Below, in pieces: positions 7,334 to 19,280 of a stretch of 19,508 nucleotides of DNA. Source of the stretch: Desulfobacula sp. (GTDB lineage Bacteria > Desulfobacterota > Desulfobacteria > Desulfobacterales > Desulfobacteraceae); the NCBI GenBank assembly GCA_011390085.1, contig JAABTB010000003.1, positions 1-19,508 on the forward strand, given 5' to 3'. A program made the translations under genes and the position numbers. The notes beneath the pieces are model-generated. The model searched no databases, was not told the origin of the DNA, and was given only the letters and a program-made list of their open reading frames with translations. How positions within the stretch are numbered: the first letter of the stretch is position 1; each line of letters begins with the position of its first letter.

Positions 7334-10300
7334 ATGCCCAAGCCTTTAACCGCTTTTTTGAATAGGCTCAGACGACTCTTTTCTATAAACATTGAAATCG
7401 GAACTTCCCTTGTATCGGCCAAGGAAAATTCCATTATATTTCTGCCCCATCGGCCGAACACTTTTTTCTGCGGGATATCAGCCCTTGTGGCCTTTAAGGT
7501 GACCCCTGCGCTATCTCCCTCGTACCTGGACACCCTAAAGGAAAAAGCGGCGTTTTTTTTAAACGGAAAAACCTTATCCGATCCGGCCCAGTCAATTCAA
7601 GAGGATTTCCTGGGAGGAGACGATTTTTTAAACCGCTTTCTTGAAGACTGTCAGGAATTAAAGCAGGAAAAATATTTTTCAGATATCTTTTTCAACCCGG
7701 ACAAACAAGACCTGCTGGGTTCCTTAAAAGACAGCCTGGAAAAGCTTGCAACCGATCAGAACGCCCATTTTAAACATAAGCTGTCCACCTTTTCACCTGC
7801 TGAAGCTGAAATCATCTCTCAACGGCTGGAAAGGCTCCGGGACATAGCCTGGTGCATTCAAAAAGAAATCCTGGAAAATATTGCCGCCATTGAAAATCTG
7901 GCCCCGGATCTTGAAAACTCAGGCAATGCCAAAGGGTTAAGCGTATTCAAACGGATGAATGCCATATTAAACAGTATTGACCGGCTTGAGGTCAGGGGAA
8001 GGGATTCCGCCGGCATCAGCTCCCTGTTCACCTTTACCAAGGAAGAGTTTGAGCATTTCAGAGACGATCTTATCAAGGCCGGGCATTCGGAACGGCTCAA
8101 ACAGAGAACCAACCATATTGTCCTGTCCAATAACAGCCTGACCATTCATGACACCTTTCCGGAAAACGGCCTGCATTTTGTGTCCATTTCTTTTGTCTAT
8201 AAATTTGCCGCAGAAATCGGAGCCCTTGGAGACAATGTGGCCTTTCTCCGGAGCCAGATCAAAAATGATCATCTCCTTCAACTGCTGGCCCATTATGATT
8301 TTACGGCCAACTCCGTATCCGCTCACACCCGCTGGGCCTCGGTGGGAGATATCACCGTTGCCAACTGCCATCCCCAGGACAATACCCCCACCGATAAAAG
8401 CATCGGCAAGACAGGGATCATCCATGTCTGCCTGAACGGCGACATTGATAATTATCTGGAACTCAAAACCGAATATGAAGCCCGGTATGACAAACTCCAT
8501 ACCGATATCAATACCGACACCAAACTCATCCCGCTCCAGATCGAGCACTATCTCAAACAGGGCAACCCCCTGGAAAACGCCTTCAGGCTTGCCCTCAATG
8601 ATTTTGAAGGCTCCCATGCCATCAGCATGCATTCGGACCTGGCGCCCGGAAAACTCTTCCTGGCCCAGAAGGGAAGCGGCCAGGCTATTTTTGTCGGAAT
8701 TGCGCAAGATCATTATATGGCTGCGTCCGAACTTTACGGCATTGTGGAAGAAACCCAGGATTATATCAAGCTCAACGGAGAAGGCAGAGGTCAGATCGTC
8801 ATTTTGGACCATGAATCCACAGGCGGGATCTCCGGTATCCGGTCCTGTTATTATGACTGCACCCCCATTCCCATGGATGAAACCGGTATCATGACCAGCA
8901 GGATTACATCCCGGGACATTGACCGTCAGAACTTTCCCCACTATTTTTTAAAGGAAATTTCAGAATCCCCGGGCTCTGTCGAGAAAACCCTTGAGAACAA
9001 ATTCAGGCTATCCCCTGAAACCCGGCTTTTTGAGACTGTCCTGGATCCTAAGGTCATACCCTCATCCCTGGAAGAGGATTTCAGACGGCAAAGGATCAAA
9101 AAAATCTATTTCATCGGTCAGGGAACGGCCGGAATTGCTGCCCAGGGCTGTGCCGACCTTTTGAAATATTATATCGGAGATATCGGCATCCAGATCCGGG
9201 CCTTGAAATCCTCGGAACTTTCCGGTTTCTGTATCATTGAAGGGAAAAACGGGGAAAAATCCATGACCGACACCCTGGTGGTGGCCATCAGCCAGTCCGG
9301 CACCACCACAGACACCAACCGGACCGTGGACATGGTCAAGGTCTGCGGCGCCAGGACCCTGTCTATTGTCAACCGCCGGGATTCCGATCTGACCTTTAAG
9401 ACCGATGGGGTCCTGTACACCAGTTCAGGCCGGGACATTGAAATGTCGGTGGCCTCCACCAAGGCCTTTTATTCCCAGATTGCTGCCGGCGCCGTTTTCG
9501 GTCTTCACATGGCAACCCTCACCCAAACCAGATCTGCCGATTTTATCACCGAAGAAATCCATGAAATCCTTTCCCTGCCGGACAAGATGAGAACCATCCT
9601 CGGCATGAAAGAGGAGATCAAGGCCTCGGCCGACCGCCTGGCCGTATCCAAATATTACTGGGCCACAGTCGGCTCGGGCTCCAACAAGACTTCTTCCGAT
9701 GAAATACGGATCAAGCTCAGCGAACTCTGCTATAAAACCATTTCATCGGATTTTATCGAAGATAAAAAACATATCGACCTCTCCAGCGAGCCCCTCATTA
9801 TCGTCTGCGCCGCCAACACAAGGGAAAGCGTTCTGGGCGACATCATCAAGGATACGGCCATTTTCAAGGCCCACAAGGCAACCCCGGTGGTCATCACCAC
9901 CATTGGGGAAGACCGGTTCGACCCCTATGCGGCGGATGTGTTCAAGATTCCGGAAACCAAAGAGCATTTTGCCCCTGTTTTAAATACCCTGGTGGGTCAT
10001 ATCTGGGGATATTACGCAGCCCTGTCCATCAATGAGGGCTCCCGGTTCATGTATGACGCCAGGGCGGAAATCCAGGATCTTCTGGATGAATATACCGCCA
10101 TGGGGCACGACGTCTACGAGGTTCTGCTTGAAAAACGGTTCAGGGAAACCATTGCCCAGTTCTATAACCGGTTTTCCAAAAAGCGACGCCAGGGAAGCTT
10201 TCCTGCCGCCATGGGGCTTGACAATGCCGCCAATCTCACCCTGCTCTTGAAATATCTTTCCGGTCGCCTGCCCGTATCGGATTTTGAAATTGATTTTGAG

Positions 10301-11038
10301 ACCAAGGGCACCCCGACCAATATGCTGAATACGTTTTTCACCAATATCAACTATTCCATCAATATCATGGCAAGGCCGGTGGATGCCATCAAGCACCAGG
10401 CCAAAACCGTCACCGTCGGCACCAGCAGGATCGCGGAAAAATTTGAAGGCATCATTTTCAATGAATTGAATGTCAATAATTTCCAGATCTCCCAGATCAC
10501 CCATAAAAATGTGCTGGTCATTAAAAACCTCCAGGAAGTCATCTCCAGGGTCAACGGCGGACTGGTTTACCAGATTTCGGGCTTGAGCCTTCTGGGAGAA
10601 GTAACTCCGGAAACCAAAATTCAAATCATTAATAAAACCGGAGCATTGAGAGAAGAGCCCTCCCGGGTGGAAAACGATCCCCGGCTCAAAGGCACGAAAA
10701 ATATCATTGTAAGGGAAGGAAATGTCTATATCGGCCGGGGCCGGAAAGACAACAAGAACATCCTGGTGATCCCCATTATTTCGGCCAACCCGGCCACACC
10801 CAATATCATTGGATTTCTCTTGTCACTGAACATCAGCTTCAAATCCTCCGAGGATGTCCCCCTCCTCAAAAAAATCAAGGCCCTGGGCGGAAAATACAAC
10901 CGGCTCAAGGACTGGATTCTTGAAAGCGGGAATTTCCAGTGGGATGACCGGTATCTGAACCTGGTGGAGGTGGATACCCTGTTCGGAGATACGGCTGAAA
11001 AAGTGGTGGAAACCATTGTTTCAAGGATCAAGGCCTAA
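7334..11038 (+). CDS. Giant GlmS-like protein (class II glutamine amidotransferase + two SIS domains)
   Basis: 1234 residues against about 610 for GlmS, which makes glucosamine-6-phosphate from fructose-6-phosphate and glutamine. ATG 7334 has a strong GGGAGGA at 7324-7330. The glutaminase domain is recognisable: C46-G-I-S, R221 in RGRDSAG, R333 in HTRWASVG, N368-G in LNGDIDNY, D395-T. GlmS's inter-domain KEI-SP element is present (FLKEISESPGSVEKTL). SIS1 has GQGTAG (595-600), SQSG (653-656) and SVASTKAF (705-712); SIS2 begins near 773, with H813 at the position of E. coli H504. Unusual features: C46 is internal, so activity would need removal of 45 residues; about 150 mostly helical residues are inserted between C46 and R221; the E488 equivalent appears to be S804; and the tail motif AKTVTVG (1023-1029), like GlmS AKSVTVE, is followed by ~205 residues I cannot assign. 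Glutamine-binding residues are kept, so amidotransfer is likely, but the acceptor may not be fructose-6-phosphate. Confidence 0.8.
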   Translation: MPKPLTAFLNRLRRLFSINIEIGTSLVSAKENSIIFLPHRPNTFFCGISALVAFKVTPALSPSYLDTLKEKAAFFLNGKTLSDPAQSIQEDFLGGDDFLNRFLEDCQELKQEKYFSDIFFNPDKQDLLGSLKDSLEKLATDQNAHFKHKLSTFSPAEAEIISQRLERLRDIAWCIQKEILENIAAIENLAPDLENSGNAKGLSVFKRMNAILNSIDRLEVRGRDSAGISSLFTFTKEEFEHFRDDLIKAGHSERLKQRTNHIVLSNNSLTIHDTFPENGLHFVSISFVYKFAAEIGALGDNVAFLRSQIKNDHLLQLLAHYDFTANSVSAHTRWASVGDITVANCHPQDNTPTDKSIGKTGIIHVCLNGDIDNYLELKTEYEARYDKLHTDINTDTKLIPLQIEHYLKQGNPLENAFRLALNDFEGSHAISMHSDLAPGKLFLAQKGSGQAIFVGIAQDHYMAASELYGIVEETQDYIKLNGEGRGQIVILDHESTGGISGIRSCYYDCTPIPMDETGIMTSRITSRDIDRQNFPHYFLKEISESPGSVEKTLENKFRLSPETRLFETVLDPKVIPSSLEEDFRRQRIKKIYFIGQGTAGIAAQGCADLLKYYIGDIGIQIRALKSSELSGFCIIEGKNGEKSMTDTLVVAISQSGTTTDTNRTVDMVKVCGARTLSIVNRRDSDLTFKTDGVLYTSSGRDIEMSVASTKAFYSQIAAGAVFGLHMATLTQTRSADFITEEIHEILSLPDKMRTILGMKEEIKASADRLAVSKYYWATVGSGSNKTSSDEIRIKLSELCYKTISSDFIEDKKHIDLSSEPLIIVCAANTRESVLGDIIKDTAIFKAHKATPVVITTIGEDRFDPYAADVFKIPETKEHFAPVLNTLVGHIWGYYAALSINEGSRFMYDARAEIQDLLDEYTAMGHDVYEVLLEKRFRETIAQFYNRFSKKRRQGSFPAAMGLDNAANLTLLLKYLSGRLPVSDFEIDFETKGTPTNMLNTFFTNINYSINIMARPVDAIKHQAKTVTVGTSRIAEKFEGIIFNELNVNNFQISQITHKNVLVIKNLQEVISRVNGGLVYQISGLSLLGEVTPETKIQIINKTGALREEPSRVENDPRLKGTKNIIVREGNVYIGRGRKDNKNILVIPIISANPATPNIIGFLLSLNISFKSSEDVPLLKKIKALGGKYNRLKDWILESGNFQWDDRYLNLVEVDTLFGDTAEKVVETIVSRIKA

Positions 11039-12233
11039 AAGGCAAATCCGATTCTTTTTTCTCCAGGGGCGGGTCTTCGAAAAGCGTGATGGAAAAAGAG
11101 GTGCCTTTTCCCGGCGTCGAATCCACATAGATCTTGCCCCCATGCTCCTGGATGATCCCGTATACCACGGAGAGCCCGAGCCCGACGCCCTTGCCTTTTT
11201 TCTTGGTCGTATAAAAGGGTTCAAATATTTTGGATATCATTTCCCGGGGAATCCCGGCCCCTGTATCCATGATCTCTATGCCCACGGTTTTTCCCGGTTC
11301 TTTGCTGAAGGTTCTGATCGTAAGCCATTTTCTTGAAACCTGGGTCATGCTTTCCACAGCATTGGAAAGCAGGTTCATAACCACCTGTTTGATCTGGTCT
11401 TCAGAACCGCAGATCAGGGGGAGGTTATGTTCCAGCTCTTCGATGACCCGTATCCGGTTTAATTTCAGAAGATTTGAATTCAGGATCAGGGTCTGTTCGA
11501 TCAATTCATTCAGATCAAAGCGGACAAATTCAATCTTGGACTGCCGGGCAAAGGTCAGAAGGTTGCCGACAATCCTTCCGATCCGCCGGGTTTCGGTTTC
11601 CATCAGCCCAAGATAACGGCGAAACAGATCCAGCTCTGATTCTTTGATCTCGTCTTCTTTCAGAATCCGCTGGGACAGCATCACCAGATTCAATATCCCG
11701 GCCACGGGATTATTGATTTCATGCACCACTGCGGAGGACAATTTCCCCAGAGAGGCCATTTTATCCTGGTGAAGCAATCGCTCATGGCTTTCTTTGAGCT
11801 GACGGGTTCTCTCTTCCACCATTTTCATGAGATAGTCCTGGGTCTTTTTTTCATCGGCTTTGCGCTTTGTGATATCCCGGCTGATTTCAATGAATTTGGA
11901 GATCTTGCCCTTCTTCTCCCAGATGGGAAAGATGGTCAGCTCCGTATACCTGGGTTTTCCATCTTTTGCCACCCGGTTCAATTCCGCCCGGCAATGGCGT
12001 TTTTCCCGGATGACCGTTTCCAAGGGGCATTTTTCATGGCAATTGCTGCTTTTCCGGGTTTTCTCCCGGAATACCTCATAGCATTTGCGGCCGATGACGT
12101 CTTCCCGCTTACAATTCATATGCTTTAAAAACGCATCATTGGTTTCAAGGATTTCCCGGTCAGGAGAAATGATCAGAATAAAATCCCGGATACCGTTGAA
12201 AATGGTCTCCATTTCATTTTTGGGAAGGTTCAT
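11028..12233 (-). CDS. Soluble PAS-domain sensor histidine kinase
   Basis: 401 residues, with no membrane segment or signal peptide, so cytoplasmic. A PAS domain (about 5-125) contains five cysteines, C41, C51, C65, C69 and C81, including GRKCYEV and CHEKCPL. A coiled-coil linker follows, then HisKA with H171 in VVHEINNPVAGI, and HATPase_c with the N box (NLLSNAVES), G1 (DTGAGI), F box (FEPFYTT) and G2 (GKGVGLGLS). It is NtrB-like in type and a natural partner for the NtrC-type regulator encoded at 15026-16369. GGAGG lies 6 bases upstream of the ATG. It is divergent from the GcvH-like genes across a 370-bp regulatory gap, and its 3' end overlaps the end of the GlmS-like gene by 11 bp. The stimulus is unknown; the PAS cysteines suggest redox or metal sensing. 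Confidence 0.93.
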   Translation of the reverse strand: MNLPKNEMETIFNGIRDFILIISPDREILETNDAFLKHMNCKREDVIGRKCYEVFREKTRKSSNCHEKCPLETVIREKRHCRAELNRVAKDGKPRYTELTIFPIWEKKGKISKFIEISRDITKRKADEKKTQDYLMKMVEERTRQLKESHERLLHQDKMASLGKLSSAVVHEINNPVAGILNLVMLSQRILKEDEIKESELDLFRRYLGLMETETRRIGRIVGNLLTFARQSKIEFVRFDLNELIEQTLILNSNLLKLNRIRVIEELEHNLPLICGSEDQIKQVVMNLLSNAVESMTQVSRKWLTIRTFSKEPGKTVGIEIMDTGAGIPREMISKIFEPFYTTKKKGKGVGLGLSVVYGIIQEHGGKIYVDSTPGKGTSFSITLFEDPPLEKKESDLPFRP

Positions 12234-12454
12234 TATGCCTCCGGAACAATAATAGGACTGGGATAATACCTCATGTTTACCATATGAGCCCCGAGGCCCG
12301 CAAGGGGTGCCGGGAAATAAGACGGGCTGTGGTAAAATCCGGCAGGTCAGGTTTCCTCAGTTCTACCAACGGTTTCCCAAAGAATGGCCGGGGGCCGGAG
12401 GTATCCTCTGCTGCAAAATCCCACACCTGCGAATTTTCACCCGCTTTTCTCCCT

Positions 12455-12480
12455 GAACCCGACGGGTTCCTGAGAAACCC
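12455..12480. promoter_or_regulatory. Overlapping palindromes, candidate activator (enhancer) sites
   Basis: GAACCC-gac-GGGTTC (12455-12469) is a perfect 6+6 inverted repeat. It overlaps GGGTTcCTgAGaAACCC (12464-12480), a 17-bp palindrome with one mismatched pair. Their centres are about 89 and 79 bp upstream of the start predicted from the sigma-54 promoter, the range typical of NtrC-family enhancer sites. No T-run follows, so a terminator is unlikely. Binding by the regulator at 15026-16369 is inferred. Confidence 0.45.
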
Positions 12481-12524
12481 TTTGAAATAAGAGCTCCCAC
12501 GGTTTTATGCAAAAAAATCCGGAC

Positions 12525-12540
12525 CGGCATCCTTTTTGCT
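12525..12540 (+). promoter_or_regulatory. Sigma-54 (-24/-12) promoter for the GcvH-like pair
   Basis: The sequence CGGCATCCTTTTTGCT matches the TGGCAY-N5-TTGCW consensus at all but the first base. GG (12526-12527) and GC (12538-12539) are separated by exactly 10 bp. The predicted start is near 12551, giving a ~53-nt leader before the ATG at 12604, which has AAGGAGG at 12591-12597. A NtrC-type activator encoded 2.4 kb away makes functional use likely. Confidence 0.75.
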
Positions 12541-12603
12541 CTATCCTATTCATAACAAAAAGAAGAACAAACCCATAAAAACAAATCCATAAGGAGGCTC
12601 CCA

Positions 12604-13521
12604 ATGAAACAGATCCGTAAAAACAGACCATCCCGGCAAACCCTTTCCGGAACCCAGACTTTTTCACAGGCCGAAACCGCCCGGCCCTGCATCTGGATGC
12701 AGGCCGGTGTGGCCGCCAAAAAAGACTGTACCCATTATCATGACTGTACCACCTGCAAATACGACACTGCCATGGAAAAACAGGCGGCCGCCGGAAAGCA
12801 TCTTTCCTGGCAGGAGGCGTTGAGAAAGCGGGACAGCCTGGACAGAACCTGCCGTCATACGCTGACCGGACGGGCGGACCACAGGACCTGCGCCATGAAT
12901 TACAATTGTTCCCGGTGTGATTTTGACCAATTATTTGAAGACACCTTGTCTCCGGCCAAGGGATATTCAGGCATTGAGATGAAAGACATCAAAGGATTCA
13001 AACTGGCGGACGGGTATTTTTTCCATATCGGCCACACCTGGGCCGGTATGGACAGCGGCGGCATCATCCGGGTGGGCATGGATGATTTTGCCTTTAAAGT
13101 ATTGGGCGGCCCCGACGGCTTTGACCTGCCCCTCATGGGCCAGGAATTGAATTCAGGTAGACCCGGCTGGGGCATCAAGCGAAACCGGAACCTGGCTGAT
13201 ATCCTTTCCCCGGTCAGCGGCATCATCACAAAGGTCAATCCTGCCATAGCCTCATCCCCGTGCCTGCCGGAACAAAACCCCTATGAAGACGGCTGGCTCT
13301 TCACCGTCCACAATTCCGATCTCAAAGGGGCCGTCAAACACCTCATGGCCGACGAGGAAAGCGTAACCTGGCTCCATGGGGAAATCACAACCCTGGAAGA
13401 AATGATTGAAACCGTCACAGGCCCCCTCAGCACCGACGGCGGTCTGCTCATGAAGGATGTCTTCGGCAATCTTCCGGCCCTGGGATGGGAAAAACTGACC
13501 CGAAGATTTCTGAAATCCTGA
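12604..13521 (+). CDS. Cysteine-rich GcvH-like protein, copy 1 (no lipoyl lysine)
   Basis: 305 residues in three parts. Residues 29-105 hold two cysteine modules of identical spacing, C29-x12-C42-x5-C48-x2-C51 and C83-x12-C96-x5-C102-x2-C105, probable metal or Fe-S sites. Residues ~125-240 resemble glycine-cleavage H protein: GHTW, VGMDDFAFKVLG, DLPLMGQEL, ILSPVSGIITKVNP and NPYEDGWLFTV. A C-terminal tail carries DGGLLMKDVFGNLP and WEKL. In true GcvH a lysine seven residues before the SPVSG serine is lipoylated; here that position is R195, so the protein is probably not lipoylated and is not a glycine-cleavage carrier. No gcvP or gcvT is in view. It follows a sigma-54 promoter and overlaps the second copy's possible upstream start by TGATG. 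The function is unknown; a metal-binding scaffold or sensor is possible. Confidence 0.8.
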   Translation: MKQIRKNRPSRQTLSGTQTFSQAETARPCIWMQAGVAAKKDCTHYHDCTTCKYDTAMEKQAAAGKHLSWQEALRKRDSLDRTCRHTLTGRADHRTCAMNYNCSRCDFDQLFEDTLSPAKGYSGIEMKDIKGFKLADGYFFHIGHTWAGMDSGGIIRVGMDDFAFKVLGGPDGFDLPLMGQELNSGRPGWGIKRNRNLADILSPVSGIITKVNPAIASSPCLPEQNPYEDGWLFTVHNSDLKGAVKHLMADEESVTWLHGEITTLEEMIETVTGPLSTDGGLLMKDVFGNLPALGWEKLTRRFLKS

Positions 13522-13534
13522 TGAACCCGAAAAT

Positions 13535-13541
13535 AAGGGAG
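13535..13541 (+). promoter_or_regulatory. Ribosome-binding site of the second GcvH-like gene
   Basis: AAGGGAG lies 9 bases before ATG 13551 and favours that start over ATG 13521, which overlaps the previous stop codon (TGATG) without a clear site. The 306-residue product from 13551 also matches copy 1 in length and domain register. Confidence 0.55.
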
Positions 13542-13550
13542 ACTTTCTCA

Positions 13551-14471
13551 ATGAACCTGTCATTATTACAAGAGATCACGCCTGACTGCCTCTGGACCCA
13601 GGCAGGCGTAGTCCTCCAAAAAAAGTGCCGCCAAGAATTCGCCTGCACCTTTTGCCGGTTTGAAAAGGCCATGGCAAGGGTGTGCCGGAATAATGAACTG
13701 CTCAAAGAAAACGGATTTGCCCCCAAAGGGCAGAAGGCAGACTTTGTTTACTGGACGGACCGGCTCCTGAAAATGCCGGTATCCAAACGGCCCTGCATCC
13801 ATCACATGAAAGGCCATATCGATTTTAAAGCCTGTACAAAGGCCTATCATTGCATTGACTGCGAATTCGAGCAGTATTTCTATGACCAGTTCAAAGTCCA
13901 TGCCGTATTAAAATCCGTGGATTTTGAAGATATCCACGGCATTTCCCTTCCCGGCGGATATTATCTCCATCCGGGCCATACCTGGATCAAAATAGAAGAC
14001 CAGGGCATGGTCCGCATGGGCATTGATGATTTCAGCGCAAGGCTTTTCGGGAAATTCGACGGCGTGTCCCTCCCACTCATGGGCAAAAAACTGACCCGGG
14101 ACCAACCGGCCCTGACCCTGTCCCGGGAAGGCCATGAGGTGTCTTTTGTCTCTCCCGTCAACGGAGTGATTGTGGATGTCAACCCCCGGATCTCCTCAAC
14201 GCCGGGCCTTATCAATGACGCGCCCTATACCGACGGATGGCTGGTCCTTCTCTATTGCCCGGCCCTGAAACAGGATCTAAAACGCCTCCTGTTCATGGAG
14301 ACGTCACGGGAATTCCTGGACACCACCGTGAACCGGCTCTATGCCTTTCTTGAAGATGAGGCCGGCATCAAGGCCGCCGACGGCGGATCGCTGGTATCGG
14401 ATATTTACGGCAATCTTCCGGGTATATCCTGGGAAAGGCTGGTCACAGAATTCATGGTCCAAGGGCTTTAA
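13551..14471 (+). CDS. Cysteine-rich GcvH-like protein, copy 2 (no lipoyl lysine)
   Basis: 306 residues from ATG 13551; ten more if ATG 13521 is used. It is a diverged paralog of the upstream gene with the same plan. Two cysteine modules, C13-x12-C26-x5-C32-x2-C35 and C82-x12-C95-x5-C101-x2-C104, have spacing identical to copy 1. The GcvH-like domain shows PGHTW, VRMGIDDFSARLFG, SLPLMGKKL, SPVNGVIVDVNP and PYTDGWLVLL, and the tail has DGGSLVSDIYGNLP and WERL. The position of the lipoyl lysine is G194, so this copy also cannot be lipoylated at the canonical site. It is presumably cotranscribed with copy 1 from the sigma-54 promoter. The 3' end overlaps the convergent archaemetzincin gene by 20 bp. 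Two different substitutions at the same site, with the cysteines fully kept, suggest a conserved non-carrier role. Function unknown. Confidence 0.8.
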   Translation: MNLSLLQEITPDCLWTQAGVVLQKKCRQEFACTFCRFEKAMARVCRNNELLKENGFAPKGQKADFVYWTDRLLKMPVSKRPCIHHMKGHIDFKACTKAYHCIDCEFEQYFYDQFKVHAVLKSVDFEDIHGISLPGGYYLHPGHTWIKIEDQGMVRMGIDDFSARLFGKFDGVSLPLMGKKLTRDQPALTLSREGHEVSFVSPVNGVIVDVNPRISSTPGLINDAPYTDGWLVLLYCPALKQDLKRLLFMETSREFLDTTVNRLYAFLEDEAGIKAADGGSLVSDIYGNLPGISWERLVTEFMVQGL

Positions 14472-15006
14472 CGGCGTCGGACAGAAGCACTTTGCAGTAC
14501 CGGCAGAATTGATCGGATTTATGATCCACATCCACCAGTTTCCGGCAATAATGCATAATGCAGCGCGGGTCTTGGCAATGCCGGAGATCAAAGGCATGAC
14601 CCAGCTCATGGGCGGCTTCCTTGACGATTCTTTCCCGGCTTTTTTTCAGGTCCCCGGCTCCGGGATAATCCATGAGGCGGGAGATGGAAACAACGGCTGC
14701 CCTGCCCCCCAGTTGGGCTTCGCCATAGACATGGGTCAGGATCGGGATAAACAGATCTTCCCGTGTCACGGCCAGAACCTTGATACAGCCCAGAGGCAGC
14801 TTTTTTTCCAGTTCTCCCAGGATGGCCGTGGAAAAATACTGGTCTCTTTTTTCGTCATAGGCAAAGAAAAGATCTGCGAGAAGGGGGGCTACCCTTGTCC
14901 TGAAACGAAAAATACGCTCAACGGTTTCGACAACAGCCTTATTGATCCAGTCCGGGATCTCGCCGATGGGTGAAATAAGAATGATCGCTTCCGGGTTCAT
15001 GGGCAT
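14452..15006 (-). CDS. Archaemetzincin-type zinc metalloprotease
   Basis: 184 residues from the ATG whose first base is 15006, the usual size for archaemetzincins; a longer N terminus would run into the upstream regulator gene. The motif HELGHAFDLRHC (133-144) gives zinc ligands H133, H137 and H143 and catalytic E134. It is followed by C149, the Met-turn M151 (CIMHY) and C168-x2-C171, the second zinc site that distinguishes archaemetzincins from other metzincins. The family's conserved glycine in HExxHxxGxxH is D140 here. VYGEA (about 93-97) resembles the family's VFGxA strand. No signal peptide, so cytoplasmic. It sits 19 bp after the sigma-54 regulator gene, probably in the same operon; AAAGAGG lies at a long spacing of 14 bases. 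Substrate unknown. Confidence 0.85.
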   Translation of the reverse strand: MPMNPEAIILISPIGEIPDWINKAVVETVERIFRFRTRVAPLLADLFFAYDEKRDQYFSTAILGELEKKLPLGCIKVLAVTREDLFIPILTHVYGEAQLGGRAAVVSISRLMDYPGAGDLKKSRERIVKEAAHELGHAFDLRHCQDPRCIMHYCRKLVDVDHKSDQFCRYCKVLLSDAVKALGP

Positions 15007-15025
15007 CAGTGCGGCAAAAGCCTCT

Positions 15026-16369
15026 TTATTCCGGTTTGAGGTCGTAGCGGTTGATCTTATTGTACAGGGTTGACCGGTCAATCCCGAGGATGGCGGAACT
15101 TTTTGAAATATTCCACCCGGTCTGGTTCAAAATAGTGAGGATATGCTCTTTTTCCACATCATCCAGGGAAAAATACCGGGTCTTCAATTCTTCTTCCCGG
15201 GAGGTCCCGATGGGAAGATCCGGAGGCGTGATGGTCCGGGTCCGGCACACCACCACGGCTCGCTCCACGGCATTGGACAGCTCCCTCACATTGCCCGGCC
15301 ATTCATAGAGCATGAGTTCATCCATGGCATCCCGGCTGATCCGCTCCACCCCCCGGTTTACCTCCTGGGTGAATTTTTTCAGGAAATGATCCGCCAGAAG
15401 GGGAATATCCTCTTTTCTCTCCCGCAACGGCGGCATGGCAAAGGAAATCACATTCAGGCGGTAGAACAGATCTTCACGAAAGGTCCGGTCTTTGATGGCC
15501 TGTTCCAGTTTTGCATGGGTGGCGGCGATCACCCTGAAATCCGCCGTAATGGGCTGGGTTCCGCCGACCTTGTAAAATATCCGGTCCTCCAGCACCTGCA
15601 AGAGGTCAATCTGCATGCGCATGCTGATCTCGCCGATTTCATCCAGGAACAGGGTCCCGCCGGAAGCCATCTCCAGCCTTCCCTTCCGGGTTTCCTTGGC
15701 ATCGGTGAAGGCGCCTTTCCGATGGCCGAAGAGTTCGCTTTCCATGATATGTTTCGGGATGGCGCCGCAGTTCACGCTGACAAAGGGGCCGTTCCTGAAT
15801 CTGGAATTGGAATGGATGGCCTTGGCTGCCAAGCCTTTTCCGGTCCCGGTTTCGCCGGTGATGAGAACCGATGACGGCACATCCTTGATATCTTCAATGA
15901 GCTTGAAAATATCCTGCATGGCCCTGGACTGGCCGATCATGCTTTCAAATCGGGTCCGGGTCTCATATTCTTCCTTCAGAAATATATTTTCCTGTTTCTG
16001 GGCCCGGTGCTGGACCAGCTTTTTGATCATGAGCCCCAGTTCATCCGGGTCAAAGGGCTTTAACAGATAGTCAAAGGCATGGGATTTCATGGCCTGAACT
16101 GCAGACTGGACAGACCCGAAGGCCGTGATCATGACCACATCGATATCCGGGTATTCTTCCTTGACACGGGAAAGCACCTCCATACCGCTCATCCCGTCCA
16201 GTTGAATGTCCAGCAGCAGGATATCAAAGCCCTTCTGTTTTAAGAGGTCCAGAGCTTCTTCCCCGCCGGCCACGGTACCGACCTCATAGCCGTCCCTTTT
16301 CAGCCACCCGGCAAGGGATTCACGGATGACCAGTTCATCATCCACGATCAGAATTCGGGTCTGTGCCAT
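15026..16369 (-). CDS. NtrC-family sigma-54-dependent response regulator
   Basis: 447 residues. Receiver domain (1-120): acidic D10/D11, phosphoacceptor D54 (LLLDIQLDGMSG), T82 and K104. AAA+ domain (about 143-375): Walker A GETGTGKG (172-179), Walker B LFLDEIGE, arginine fingers in FREDLFYRLNV, and the sigma-54-contact loop GAFTDA (219-224) in place of the usual GAFTGA. The Fis-type helix-turn-helix is at about 405-442 (SAILGIDRSTLYNKI). Phosphorylation should trigger oligomerisation and ATP-driven opening of sigma-54 promoters. The likely kinase is encoded at 11028-12233 and the likely target is the promoter at 12525-12540. AAGGAG lies just upstream of the ATG. The archaemetzincin gene follows in the same operon. 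Confidence 0.95.
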   Translation of the reverse strand: MAQTRILIVDDELVIRESLAGWLKRDGYEVGTVAGGEEALDLLKQKGFDILLLDIQLDGMSGMEVLSRVKEEYPDIDVVMITAFGSVQSAVQAMKSHAFDYLLKPFDPDELGLMIKKLVQHRAQKQENIFLKEEYETRTRFESMIGQSRAMQDIFKLIEDIKDVPSSVLITGETGTGKGLAAKAIHSNSRFRNGPFVSVNCGAIPKHIMESELFGHRKGAFTDAKETRKGRLEMASGGTLFLDEIGEISMRMQIDLLQVLEDRIFYKVGGTQPITADFRVIAATHAKLEQAIKDRTFREDLFYRLNVISFAMPPLRERKEDIPLLADHFLKKFTQEVNRGVERISRDAMDELMLYEWPGNVRELSNAVERAVVVCRTRTITPPDLPIGTSREEELKTRYFSLDDVEKEHILTILNQTGWNISKSSAILGIDRSTLYNKINRYDLKPE

Positions 16370-18101: not shown

Positions 18102-19280
18102 ATGTTCGCCAGAAAAATAAACGATCGCGTTTTTTGTCTTGGATCAGTGGACTGGGACAGACGTCTGTTTGATACCTTGATCCCTTTACCCGACGGCACC
18201 AGCTATAATGCGTATCTGATTAAAGGCAGTGAAAAAACCGCCCTGCTGGATACGGTGGATCCGCCCAAGACCGATGAACTCATGGCCCAACTGAAAGATG
18301 TCCCCAAAATCGATTTTGTTGTTTCCCTTCATGCCGAGCAGGATCATTCCGGAACCATTCCTCGAATTCTTGAAAAATATCCGGAGGCCAAATTAATATC
18401 AACACCCAAGGCAAAGGGAATGTTGATTGATTTGCTTAAAATATCCGATGAAAAATTTATTACCGTAGAAGATGGTGAAACCGTGTCCCTGGGTGACAAG
18501 ACATTAAAATTTATTTATACTCCCTGGGTGCACTGGCCGGAAACCATAGTGGCCTGGTTGGAAGAAGACAAAATTCTTTTTTCATGTGATTTTTTTGGTT
18601 CCCACATTGCTACCACGGATCTGTTTGTCACGGACGAAGGCCGCGTGTATGAGGCGGCCAAACGGTATTTTGCCGAAATCATGATGCCCTTTCGCAGCAT
18701 CATCAAAAAAAATCTGGAAAAACTGGCCCCTTACCCCATTGAGATGATTGCCCCCAGCCACGGCCAGATTTTTAAGAATCCGGCGTTTATCTTAGACGCC
18801 TATAATGACTGGGTGAGCGGCCGGCCCAAAAATATCGTGGTGCTGCCCTATGTATCCATGCATGAAAGCACGAAACTGATGGTGGAGCATCTCGTGGCAT
18901 CCCTGGTAGATAAAGGTGTTAAGGTGGAACTGTTTAATCTGGCGGTCACCGATATCGGCAAACTGGCCATGGCCTTAGTGGATGCCGCAACCATTGTGGT
19001 GGGCACCCCCACGGTCCTGGCAGGCCCGCATCCGTATGCCGCCTATGCGGCGTTTCTGGCAAATGCCCTTAAGCCGCAGGCAAAGTTCCTGTCCATCGTC
19101 GGTTCCTTTGGATGGGGCGGAAAGACCGTGGAAACCCTTGCCGGCATGATTCCCAATCTCAAGGTCGAGGTGCTGGAACCCGTGCTTTGCAAAGGACAAC
19201 CCGGAGAAAAAGATTTTCGCGCGTTGGAGGATCTGGCGGCGGTAATTGCGCAAAAACATGCGGAAAACGGCTTTACATAG
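18102..19280 (+). CDS. fprA: Flavodiiron protein (A-type), O2/NO reductase
   Basis: 392 residues. The N-terminal metallo-beta-lactamase-like domain carries the full diiron set: H77-x-E79-x-D81-H82 (LHAEQDH), H144 (WVHWPE), D163 (SCDFFG) and H220 (PSHG). The flavodoxin domain begins about residue 243, with the FMN loop SMHEST, then GTPTVLAGPHP and VGSFGWGGKT. The length is that of class A enzymes without fused rubredoxin, so a separate rubredoxin should supply electrons. It reduces O2 to water and/or NO to N2O in the cytoplasm, a standard defence of sulfate reducers. AAGGAGG lies 7 bases before the ATG, predicting high translation. An FNR-type box upstream suggests oxygen- or NO-responsive control. 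A periplasmic adaptor gene starts 19 bp downstream. Confidence 0.95.
   Translation: MFARKINDRVFCLGSVDWDRRLFDTLIPLPDGTSYNAYLIKGSEKTALLDTVDPPKTDELMAQLKDVPKIDFVVSLHAEQDHSGTIPRILEKYPEAKLISTPKAKGMLIDLLKISDEKFITVEDGETVSLGDKTLKFIYTPWVHWPETIVAWLEEDKILFSCDFFGSHIATTDLFVTDEGRVYEAAKRYFAEIMMPFRSIIKKNLEKLAPYPIEMIAPSHGQIFKNPAFILDAYNDWVSGRPKNIVVLPYVSMHESTKLMVEHLVASLVDKGVKVELFNLAVTDIGKLAMALVDAATIVVGTPTVLAGPHPYAAYAAFLANALKPQAKFLSIVGSFGWGGKTVETLAGMIPNLKVEVLEPVLCKGQPGEKDFRALEDLAAVIAQKHAENGFT

Follow-up and report, generated by a model that had tools for sequence, protein, structure and literature searches.

The stretch of DNA analysed here (the window, 19,508 nucleotides) is the entire contig C243 of genome G000, an assembly of Desulfobacula sp. 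that is 57% complete, and protein searches with it returned near homologs carrying names such as Desulfobacula and Desulfobacteraceae. Its positions 11028 to 16369 hold the genes of a histidine kinase, of two tandem proteins related to the H protein of the glycine cleavage system (GcvH-like proteins A and B), of an archaemetzincin and of an NtrC-type response regulator, together with a sigma-54 type promoter and two dyads:

11028..12233 (-), soluble sensor histidine kinase with PAS, HisKA and HATPase_c domains (Pfam)
12328..12344, enhancer-like dyad 1, TGYNG-N7-CNRCA
12409..12425, enhancer-like dyad 2, 81 bp 3' of dyad 1; the -24 element lies 100 bp further downstream
12525..12540 (+), sigma-54 type -24/-12 promoter, CGGCATCCTTTTTGCT, GG at 12526 and GC at 12538, conserved in relatives
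12604..13521 (+), GcvH-like protein A, with a double C4 module at residues 29-105, a GcvH-fold domain at about 132-264 and a conserved tail
13551..14471 (+), GcvH-like protein B, of the same architecture as A
14452..15006 (-), archaemetzincin (M54) with HExxHx5H and four structural cysteines, tail-to-tail with B with a 20-nt overlap
15026..16369 (-), NtrC-type response regulator with REC, sigma-54 AAA+ and Fis helix-turn-helix (HTH) domains, just 5' of the protease gene on the same strand

A first-pass annotation, made from the letters of the window, had described a PAS kinase and an NtrC-type regulator bracketing two tandem paralogs, a sigma-54 promoter preceding the pair and a regulator co-oriented with a zinc protease, and each of these features was recovered, with all five genes in place. 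For protein B, the ATG at 13551 is a better start than the listed TTG, and the resulting 306 residues correspond to the length of many homologs; for the protease, the ATG at 15006 or 15000 is preferred, immediately after the stop codon of the regulator.

Homologs were collected by similarity to the GcvH-like proteins from 58 genomes (that of the window and related ones), from 395 genomes of the phylum (among the matches listed) and from contigs of named genomes (the best 80 of 261 matches). Gene neighbourhoods were fetched for a part of the first two sets, 40 from each; among those of the phylum, unusual architectures were chosen deliberately, and locus L203 was chosen for the absence of the protease, both of which depress the number of modules counted. 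To label genes, profiles were derived from the relatives of the window. Removal of identical copies left 141 units with a cysteine head, many of them truncated at contig ends, of which 83, flanked on either side by at least 4 kb, are referred to as complete loci. The module, promoter and dyad counts and those below 55% identity refer to units with a cysteine head and at least 150 bits outside L001-L031, and 4 of the 141 units, with short upstream sequence, were left out of them.

Within 5 kb, the protease was found at 73 of the 83 complete loci, the regulator at 72 and the kinase at 73 (the kinase threshold is generic, so that kinase counts alone are weak evidence); all three were found at 70 and neither protease nor regulator at 9. 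The first-pass annotation had named homologs of the pair occurring mostly without the two-component genes as the result that would speak against it, and the partners are mostly present. All three accompany 18 of 21 tandem pairs, 52 of 62 single genes and 102 of the 141 units overall, and after reduction of the sample they are retained at 19 of 27 complete loci under 55% identity and at 10 of 15 under 45%. At most loci the genes of the set lie close together, and several gene orders occur. In the reverse test on the 58 genomes, 45 of 49 archaemetzincin matches of at least 100 bits had a GcvH-like gene no more than 6.5 kb away; the four unlinked ones belong to G051, G004, G055 and G013 (one each), that of G013 being located at a contig end behind a kinase and a regulator. 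Both genes are present in 37 of these genomes, the GcvH-like gene only in one (G047), the protease only in one (G051) and neither in 19 (Fisher p 4e-13, relatedness ignored), where matches below 100 bits for archaemetzincin (8 of 57, including one in G039 that adjoins a weak GcvH-like match) and below 120 bits for the GcvH-like protein were dropped and genomes with weak matches only were scored as having neither. These distributions strongly support the prediction that kinase, regulator, GcvH-like protein(s) and archaemetzincin form one functional module, and the module appears to be conserved in sulfate reducers and their Desulfobacterota-type relatives and usually to stay together, which is likewise well supported. 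The tandem pair, present in the window as had been claimed, is not a defining part of it, since only one gene carries a cysteine head at 62 of the 83 complete loci. The module was not found described in the open-access literature searched and is called undescribed within that scope.

Sigma-54 sites were searched in the 400 nt before each gene with the consensus TGGCACG-N4-TTGCW, in which GG-N10-GC was obligatory. The site of the window taken alone does not exceed chance expectation (in the window, 19 sites with at most 3 mismatches versus 24.4 expected) and gains its significance from its conservation in relatives. Of 137 first GcvH-like genes, 82 are preceded by a site matching at least 10 of the 12 positions, versus 24 of 1417 other open reading frames (ORFs) in the same stretches, and sites matching at least 9 precede 114 of 137 versus 121 of 1417, figures that involve approximate gene starts, mechanical control ORFs and related loci. 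With identical proteins counted once, sites of at least 10/12 were found before 63 of 149 GcvH-like genes with a head (second copies of pairs included) and 30 of 1083 other ORFs, and before none of 106 regulators, 93 kinases and 102 proteases. Among the units under 55% identity, 15 of 28 retain such a site. The locus combines a conserved GG-N10-GC promoter before the target with the REC, sigma-54 AAA+ and Fis-type HTH domains that Pfam recognises in the regulator. Because the sites lie before the GcvH-like genes and not before those of regulator, kinase or protease, the predicted target is the GcvH-like pair; the earlier claim that the five genes form one regulon was right as to the module and too wide as to the regulon.

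The dyad pattern was taken from an alignment of the window and six relatives and is partly fitted to these seven paired loci; it occurs at least once in 28 of 30 paired loci and at least twice in 19, the mean in shuffled sequences being 0.017 per locus. It also precedes 160 of 1378 control ORFs, some of which share one upstream region. When all sigma-54-like sites of at least 9/12 in the fetched stretches are considered, a dyad lies at most 400 nt upstream of 85 of the 151 that precede GcvH-like genes, of 9 of the 180 that precede other ORFs and of 34 of the 616 that no ORF follows. The predicted wiring, from the regulator to the promoter of the GcvH-like gene, is very probably correct, and the regulator may bind to the dyads. 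Two of the nine sites before other ORFs belong to operons of L085 and L119 that are headed by a small receiver protein (L085:8910-9347(-) and L119:8952-9398(-)) and contain HdrA- and FlpD-like genes. Their sigma-54-like site and dyads lie in a region shared with a divergent GcvH-like gene, and the dyads may therefore be those of the GcvH-like promoter region.

No membrane segment was seen in the kinase of the window by hydropathy (best 19-residue mean 1.24), and all 98 kinase ORFs of at least 550 bits (copies included, 85 distinct) look soluble. The kinase would transfer its phosphate to the regulator, whose profile is specific: in each of four genomes, the module regulators rank first among the 119 to 150 candidates scored. 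In the sigma-54 contact loop, 64 of 111 module regulators have GAFTGA and 36 have GAFTDA, the form also seen in the regulator of the window. A second kinase and a second sigma-54 regulator-like gene (~577 aa where measured) adjoin the module in L073, L077, L085, L086 and L089.

The GcvH-like proteins A and B are 33% identical. The C-x12-C-x5-C-x2-C doublet consists of C29, C42, C48 and C51 and of C83, C96, C102 and C105 in A, all eight are retained in B, and the GNLP tail is found in both, in agreement with the composite architecture first proposed for the two paralogs. Their GcvH fold is recognised by Pfam GCV_H (59.2 and 65.5 bits, cut-off 22.2), whereas the gcvH equivalog TIGR00527 gives 56.8 and 56.3 bits versus a cut-off of 115.85. 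The lipoyl lysine had been reported missing, and in the alignments its position is indeed occupied by R in A and by G in B; it is Lys in 15 of 214 relatives, and the eight cysteine columns contain Cys in 172 to 181 of the 214 members. Sequence statistics support the absence of the lipoyl lysine, the GcvH-like proteins are most likely not lipoyl carriers, and a metal (Zn or Fe-S) may be bound by the Cys4 modules. Versions without the cysteine head exist at some loci, and those of L167 and L170 have kinase, regulator and protease. Membership in the glycine cleavage system was considered for these proteins and rejected, since the lysine is not conserved and the scores are below the cut-off. Many named homologs are labelled 'glycine cleavage system protein H', a label that is probably wrong for what appears to be an H-protein fold without the lipoyl lysine, joined to a cysteine-rich head. 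The available parts of PMC12316311 and PMC2725144 do not contain the term 'glycine cleavage'.

In relatives, GcvH-like domains are associated with proteins of heterodisulfide reductase (Hdr), Flp and Nfn type. The domain is fused to an HdrA2-like protein in L161 (840 bits, under the cut-off of 1100), with a similar domain set in L165, to a FlpD/molybdopterin-binding/4Fe-4S protein in L162, to a 2Fe-2S/4Fe-4S protein in L176 and to a 4Fe-4S protein, read as HdrC-like, in L169. A gene row GcvH-like-HdrC-HdrB-HdrA was identified by Pfam in L129, where HdrA is truncated by the contig end and the upstream sequence is absent, and, from sequence clusters alone, in L186, L187, L194 and L198, which have sigma-54 sites of 9 to 11 of 12 at most 60 nt upstream. 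In G047, the genome with a GcvH-like gene and no protease, this gene is the last of a row with NuoE-, NuoF-, Fer2-, FlpD-, NfnA- and NfnB-like domains (names as we read them from Pfam), and a sigma-54 site lies 88 nt before the first gene of the row. We give the link of the GcvH-like proteins to Hdr-type complexes an even chance. Flavin-based electron bifurcation is central to sulfate reducers, and the associations hint at a role of the GcvH-like proteins in it.

Of two HdrA-like proteins encoded close to the module, L119:249-3692(-) contains a receiver, recognised by Pfam as Response_reg, and for L078:4570-8040(+) a match to the regulator profile suggests one, so that direct phospho-control of an Hdr-type enzyme is possible. 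Several HdrA-like matches in G042, G048, G265, G008 and G034 lie in frames of ~1500 codons with a single in-frame TGA, which may encode selenocysteine.

The protease belongs to the archaemetzincins according to PF07998 (73.9 bits, cut-off 24.4) and NF033823 (145.1 bits, cut-off 145), the non-proteolytic family model NF033824 scoring lower (90.6 bits). It contains the signature HExxHxxGxxHC-x4-C-x-M and the downstream CxxC, with Asp at the Gly position, where 32 of 108 relatives have Gly. All 108 distinct proteases examined retain the catalytic Glu, the four cysteines and the zinc ligands, with HExxHx5H intact, an argument against a role that is purely structural. The protease gene comes immediately after that of the regulator, on the same strand, in 103 of 106 units, and from this position it would not itself be transcribed from the sigma-54 promoter. 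An action of the protease on the GcvH-like proteins is plausible, although we rate it slightly under even. In the available part of a structural study, the biological importance of archaemetzincins is called very little known (PMC3427221), and AMZ-tk is reported to have cleaved casein (PMC4681839). Of the 24 open-access papers found with the word archaemetzincin, none concerns Desulfobacterota by its title.

The explanation that we favour, and consider moderately probable as a whole, is a dedicated and conserved control module in which GcvH-like adaptors for Hdr-type complexes are combined with a proteolytic off-switch. The cytoplasmic PAS kinase would sense an internal signal and phosphorylate the NtrC-type regulator, which would bind to the paired TGYNG-N7-CNRCA dyads and activate the sigma-54 promoter of the GcvH-like gene(s). 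The GcvH-like proteins would most likely act as adaptors or as subunits for electron transfer, in which a double-Cys4 head that binds metal (Zn or Fe-S) is joined to a GcvH-fold docking domain, and may serve cytoplasmic electron-bifurcating complexes of HdrA/Flp/Nfn type, and the archaemetzincin would most likely trim or remove them, allowing a quick switch-off. Statistical support was obtained for the co-occurrence, the promoter, the dyads, the intact protease site and the absence of the lipoyl lysine; we infer the phosphotransfer, the binding of the regulator to the dyads, the metal of the Cys4 modules, the service to Hdr-type complexes and the proteolysis of the GcvH-like proteins. The complete regulatory-proteolytic circuit, in which non-lipoylated adaptors induced through sigma-54 plug into HdrA/Flp/Nfn complexes and a dedicated archaemetzincin removes them, is tentative and somewhat improbable as a whole; if it were true, the orphan archaemetzincin family would gain a natural substrate. 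Archaemetzincins occur in archaea, bacteria and animals, and with a near-constant genetic partner at hand a candidate substrate or partner becomes open to direct test; the promoter and dyads would offer an immediate route to mapping the regulon.

Several observations weigh against this explanation. At least one partner is missing in 13 of the 83 complete units; in G004 the GcvH-like pair is separated from its partners, regulator, protease and kinase lying together on another contig, and in G051 these three are together and a GcvH-like gene was not found. The kinase of G051 starts with a hydrophobic stretch, so that related kinases may not all be soluble. The dyads, besides being partly fitted, occur at only 41 of 107 single-type loci (0.034 per locus after letter shuffling). 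An HdrA-like gene (loose cluster) lies within 6 kb of 29 of the 83 units, but such genes are abundant in these genomes and part of this count is chance (~6% expected by a hand estimate in which the stretches were not matched), and the fusions and gene rows were therefore weighed above it. None of 58 HdrA-like genes is preceded by a sigma-54 site of at least 10/12, and in G008 and G034 the nearest ortholog of the HdrA found next to other modules lies at a great distance from the module. The module of the window itself has no Hdr, Flp or Nfn gene beside it, so that the adaptor role is drawn from its relatives. Finally, the archaemetzincin AfAmzA showed no activity towards the substrates with which it was assayed (PMC3427221, available in part).

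The GcvH-like proteins might alternatively be sensors and not the output, the Cys4 head sensing redox state, a metal or a metabolite and feeding back on the soluble kinase, with the sigma-54 promoter keeping their amount by autoregulation and the protease degrading the sensor in one state. The uniformly soluble appearance of the 98 kinase ORFs, the conservation of the eight cysteine columns and the compactness of the gene set would fit such a role, but the occurrence of the GcvH-like domain in fusions or gene rows together with HdrA-, FlpD-, HdrC- and NuoF-type proteins points to a position within enzyme complexes, and the headless versions of L167 and L170 still accompany kinase, regulator and protease; we regard a sensor as unlikely. 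The archaemetzincin might also be a non-proteolytic regulatory partner that binds the regulator or RNA polymerase. Its position directly behind the regulator would suit this, as would the example of CarG of Myxococcus, a homolog of archaemetzincins from a bacterium whose HExxH is degenerate and which acts in transcription according to the available part of PMC3427221. However, the HExxHx5H and Cys4 site is intact in 108 of 108 proteases and the non-proteolytic model is the weaker match (90.6 versus 145.1 bits), which makes a CarG-like function rather unlikely.

A role of the GcvH-like proteins in glycine or one-carbon metabolism or in lipoate transfer, under a GcsR-like regulator, could invoke the GcvH fold and the enhancer-binding protein GcsR, which controls glycine cleavage genes in Pseudomonas (PMC4894688, available in part). 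It is very improbable in view of the lipoyl lysine in only 15 of 214 relatives, the equivalog score of 56.8 under a cut-off of 115.85 and the separate short matches of GcvH size elsewhere in many of the 58 genomes. For a fortuitous clustering of unrelated genes within a single lineage, the only argument is that gene order is shared by close relatives, but the set is kept in 19 of 27 complete loci under 55% identity and in several gene orders, and presence and absence match across the 58 genomes (with relatedness ignored), so that chance has a negligible probability.

Compared with known systems, the favoured explanation, a control module for Hdr-type adaptors, recalls the GcvH-like lipoate-binding proteins LbpA, whose genes accompany the Hdr-like genes of the sulfur-oxidising sHdr system (PMC6067878, available in part). 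Both kinds of protein are GcvH-like, and here Hdr-like genes are seen near the module in some relatives and not in the window; unlike LbpA, which binds lipoate, the module proteins have lost the lysine, gained a Cys4 head and are accompanied by a two-component system and an archaemetzincin. They differ from GcvH and from the GcvH-L of Streptococcus in the missing lipoyl lysine, the additional double-Cys4 head and tail and a score far under the gcvH equivalog cut-off. The response regulator DVU2394 of Desulfovibrio vulgaris is a further parallel in that it drives an adh-hdr operon, which contains heterodisulfide reductase genes (PMC3333781), a comparison made by description and not by orthology; the available part of that paper mentions no GcvH-like or archaemetzincin partner. 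With NtrC, AtoC and ZraR systems the module shares the REC-AAA+-Fis regulator, the PAS kinase and the -24/-12 target promoter, and it differs in the type of target gene and in the GAFTDA variant of GAFTGA. The protease resembles the archaemetzincins AfAmzA, AMZ-tk and CarG in the family models and in the signature HExxHxxxxxHC-x4-C-x-M...CxxC, and is set apart from known archaemetzincins by its near-constant genetic partner, its place behind a response regulator and, in the window, the replacement of the signature Gly by Asp.

Two further genes of the window lie near the module. Positions 7334-11038 encode a protein of 1234 residues that by eye resembles a long protein of GlmS type (amidotransferase and sugar isomerase), and this gene adjoins the module in some near relatives. 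Positions 18102-19280 encode a flavodiiron protein (FprA-like, ODP beta-lactamase and flavodoxin).

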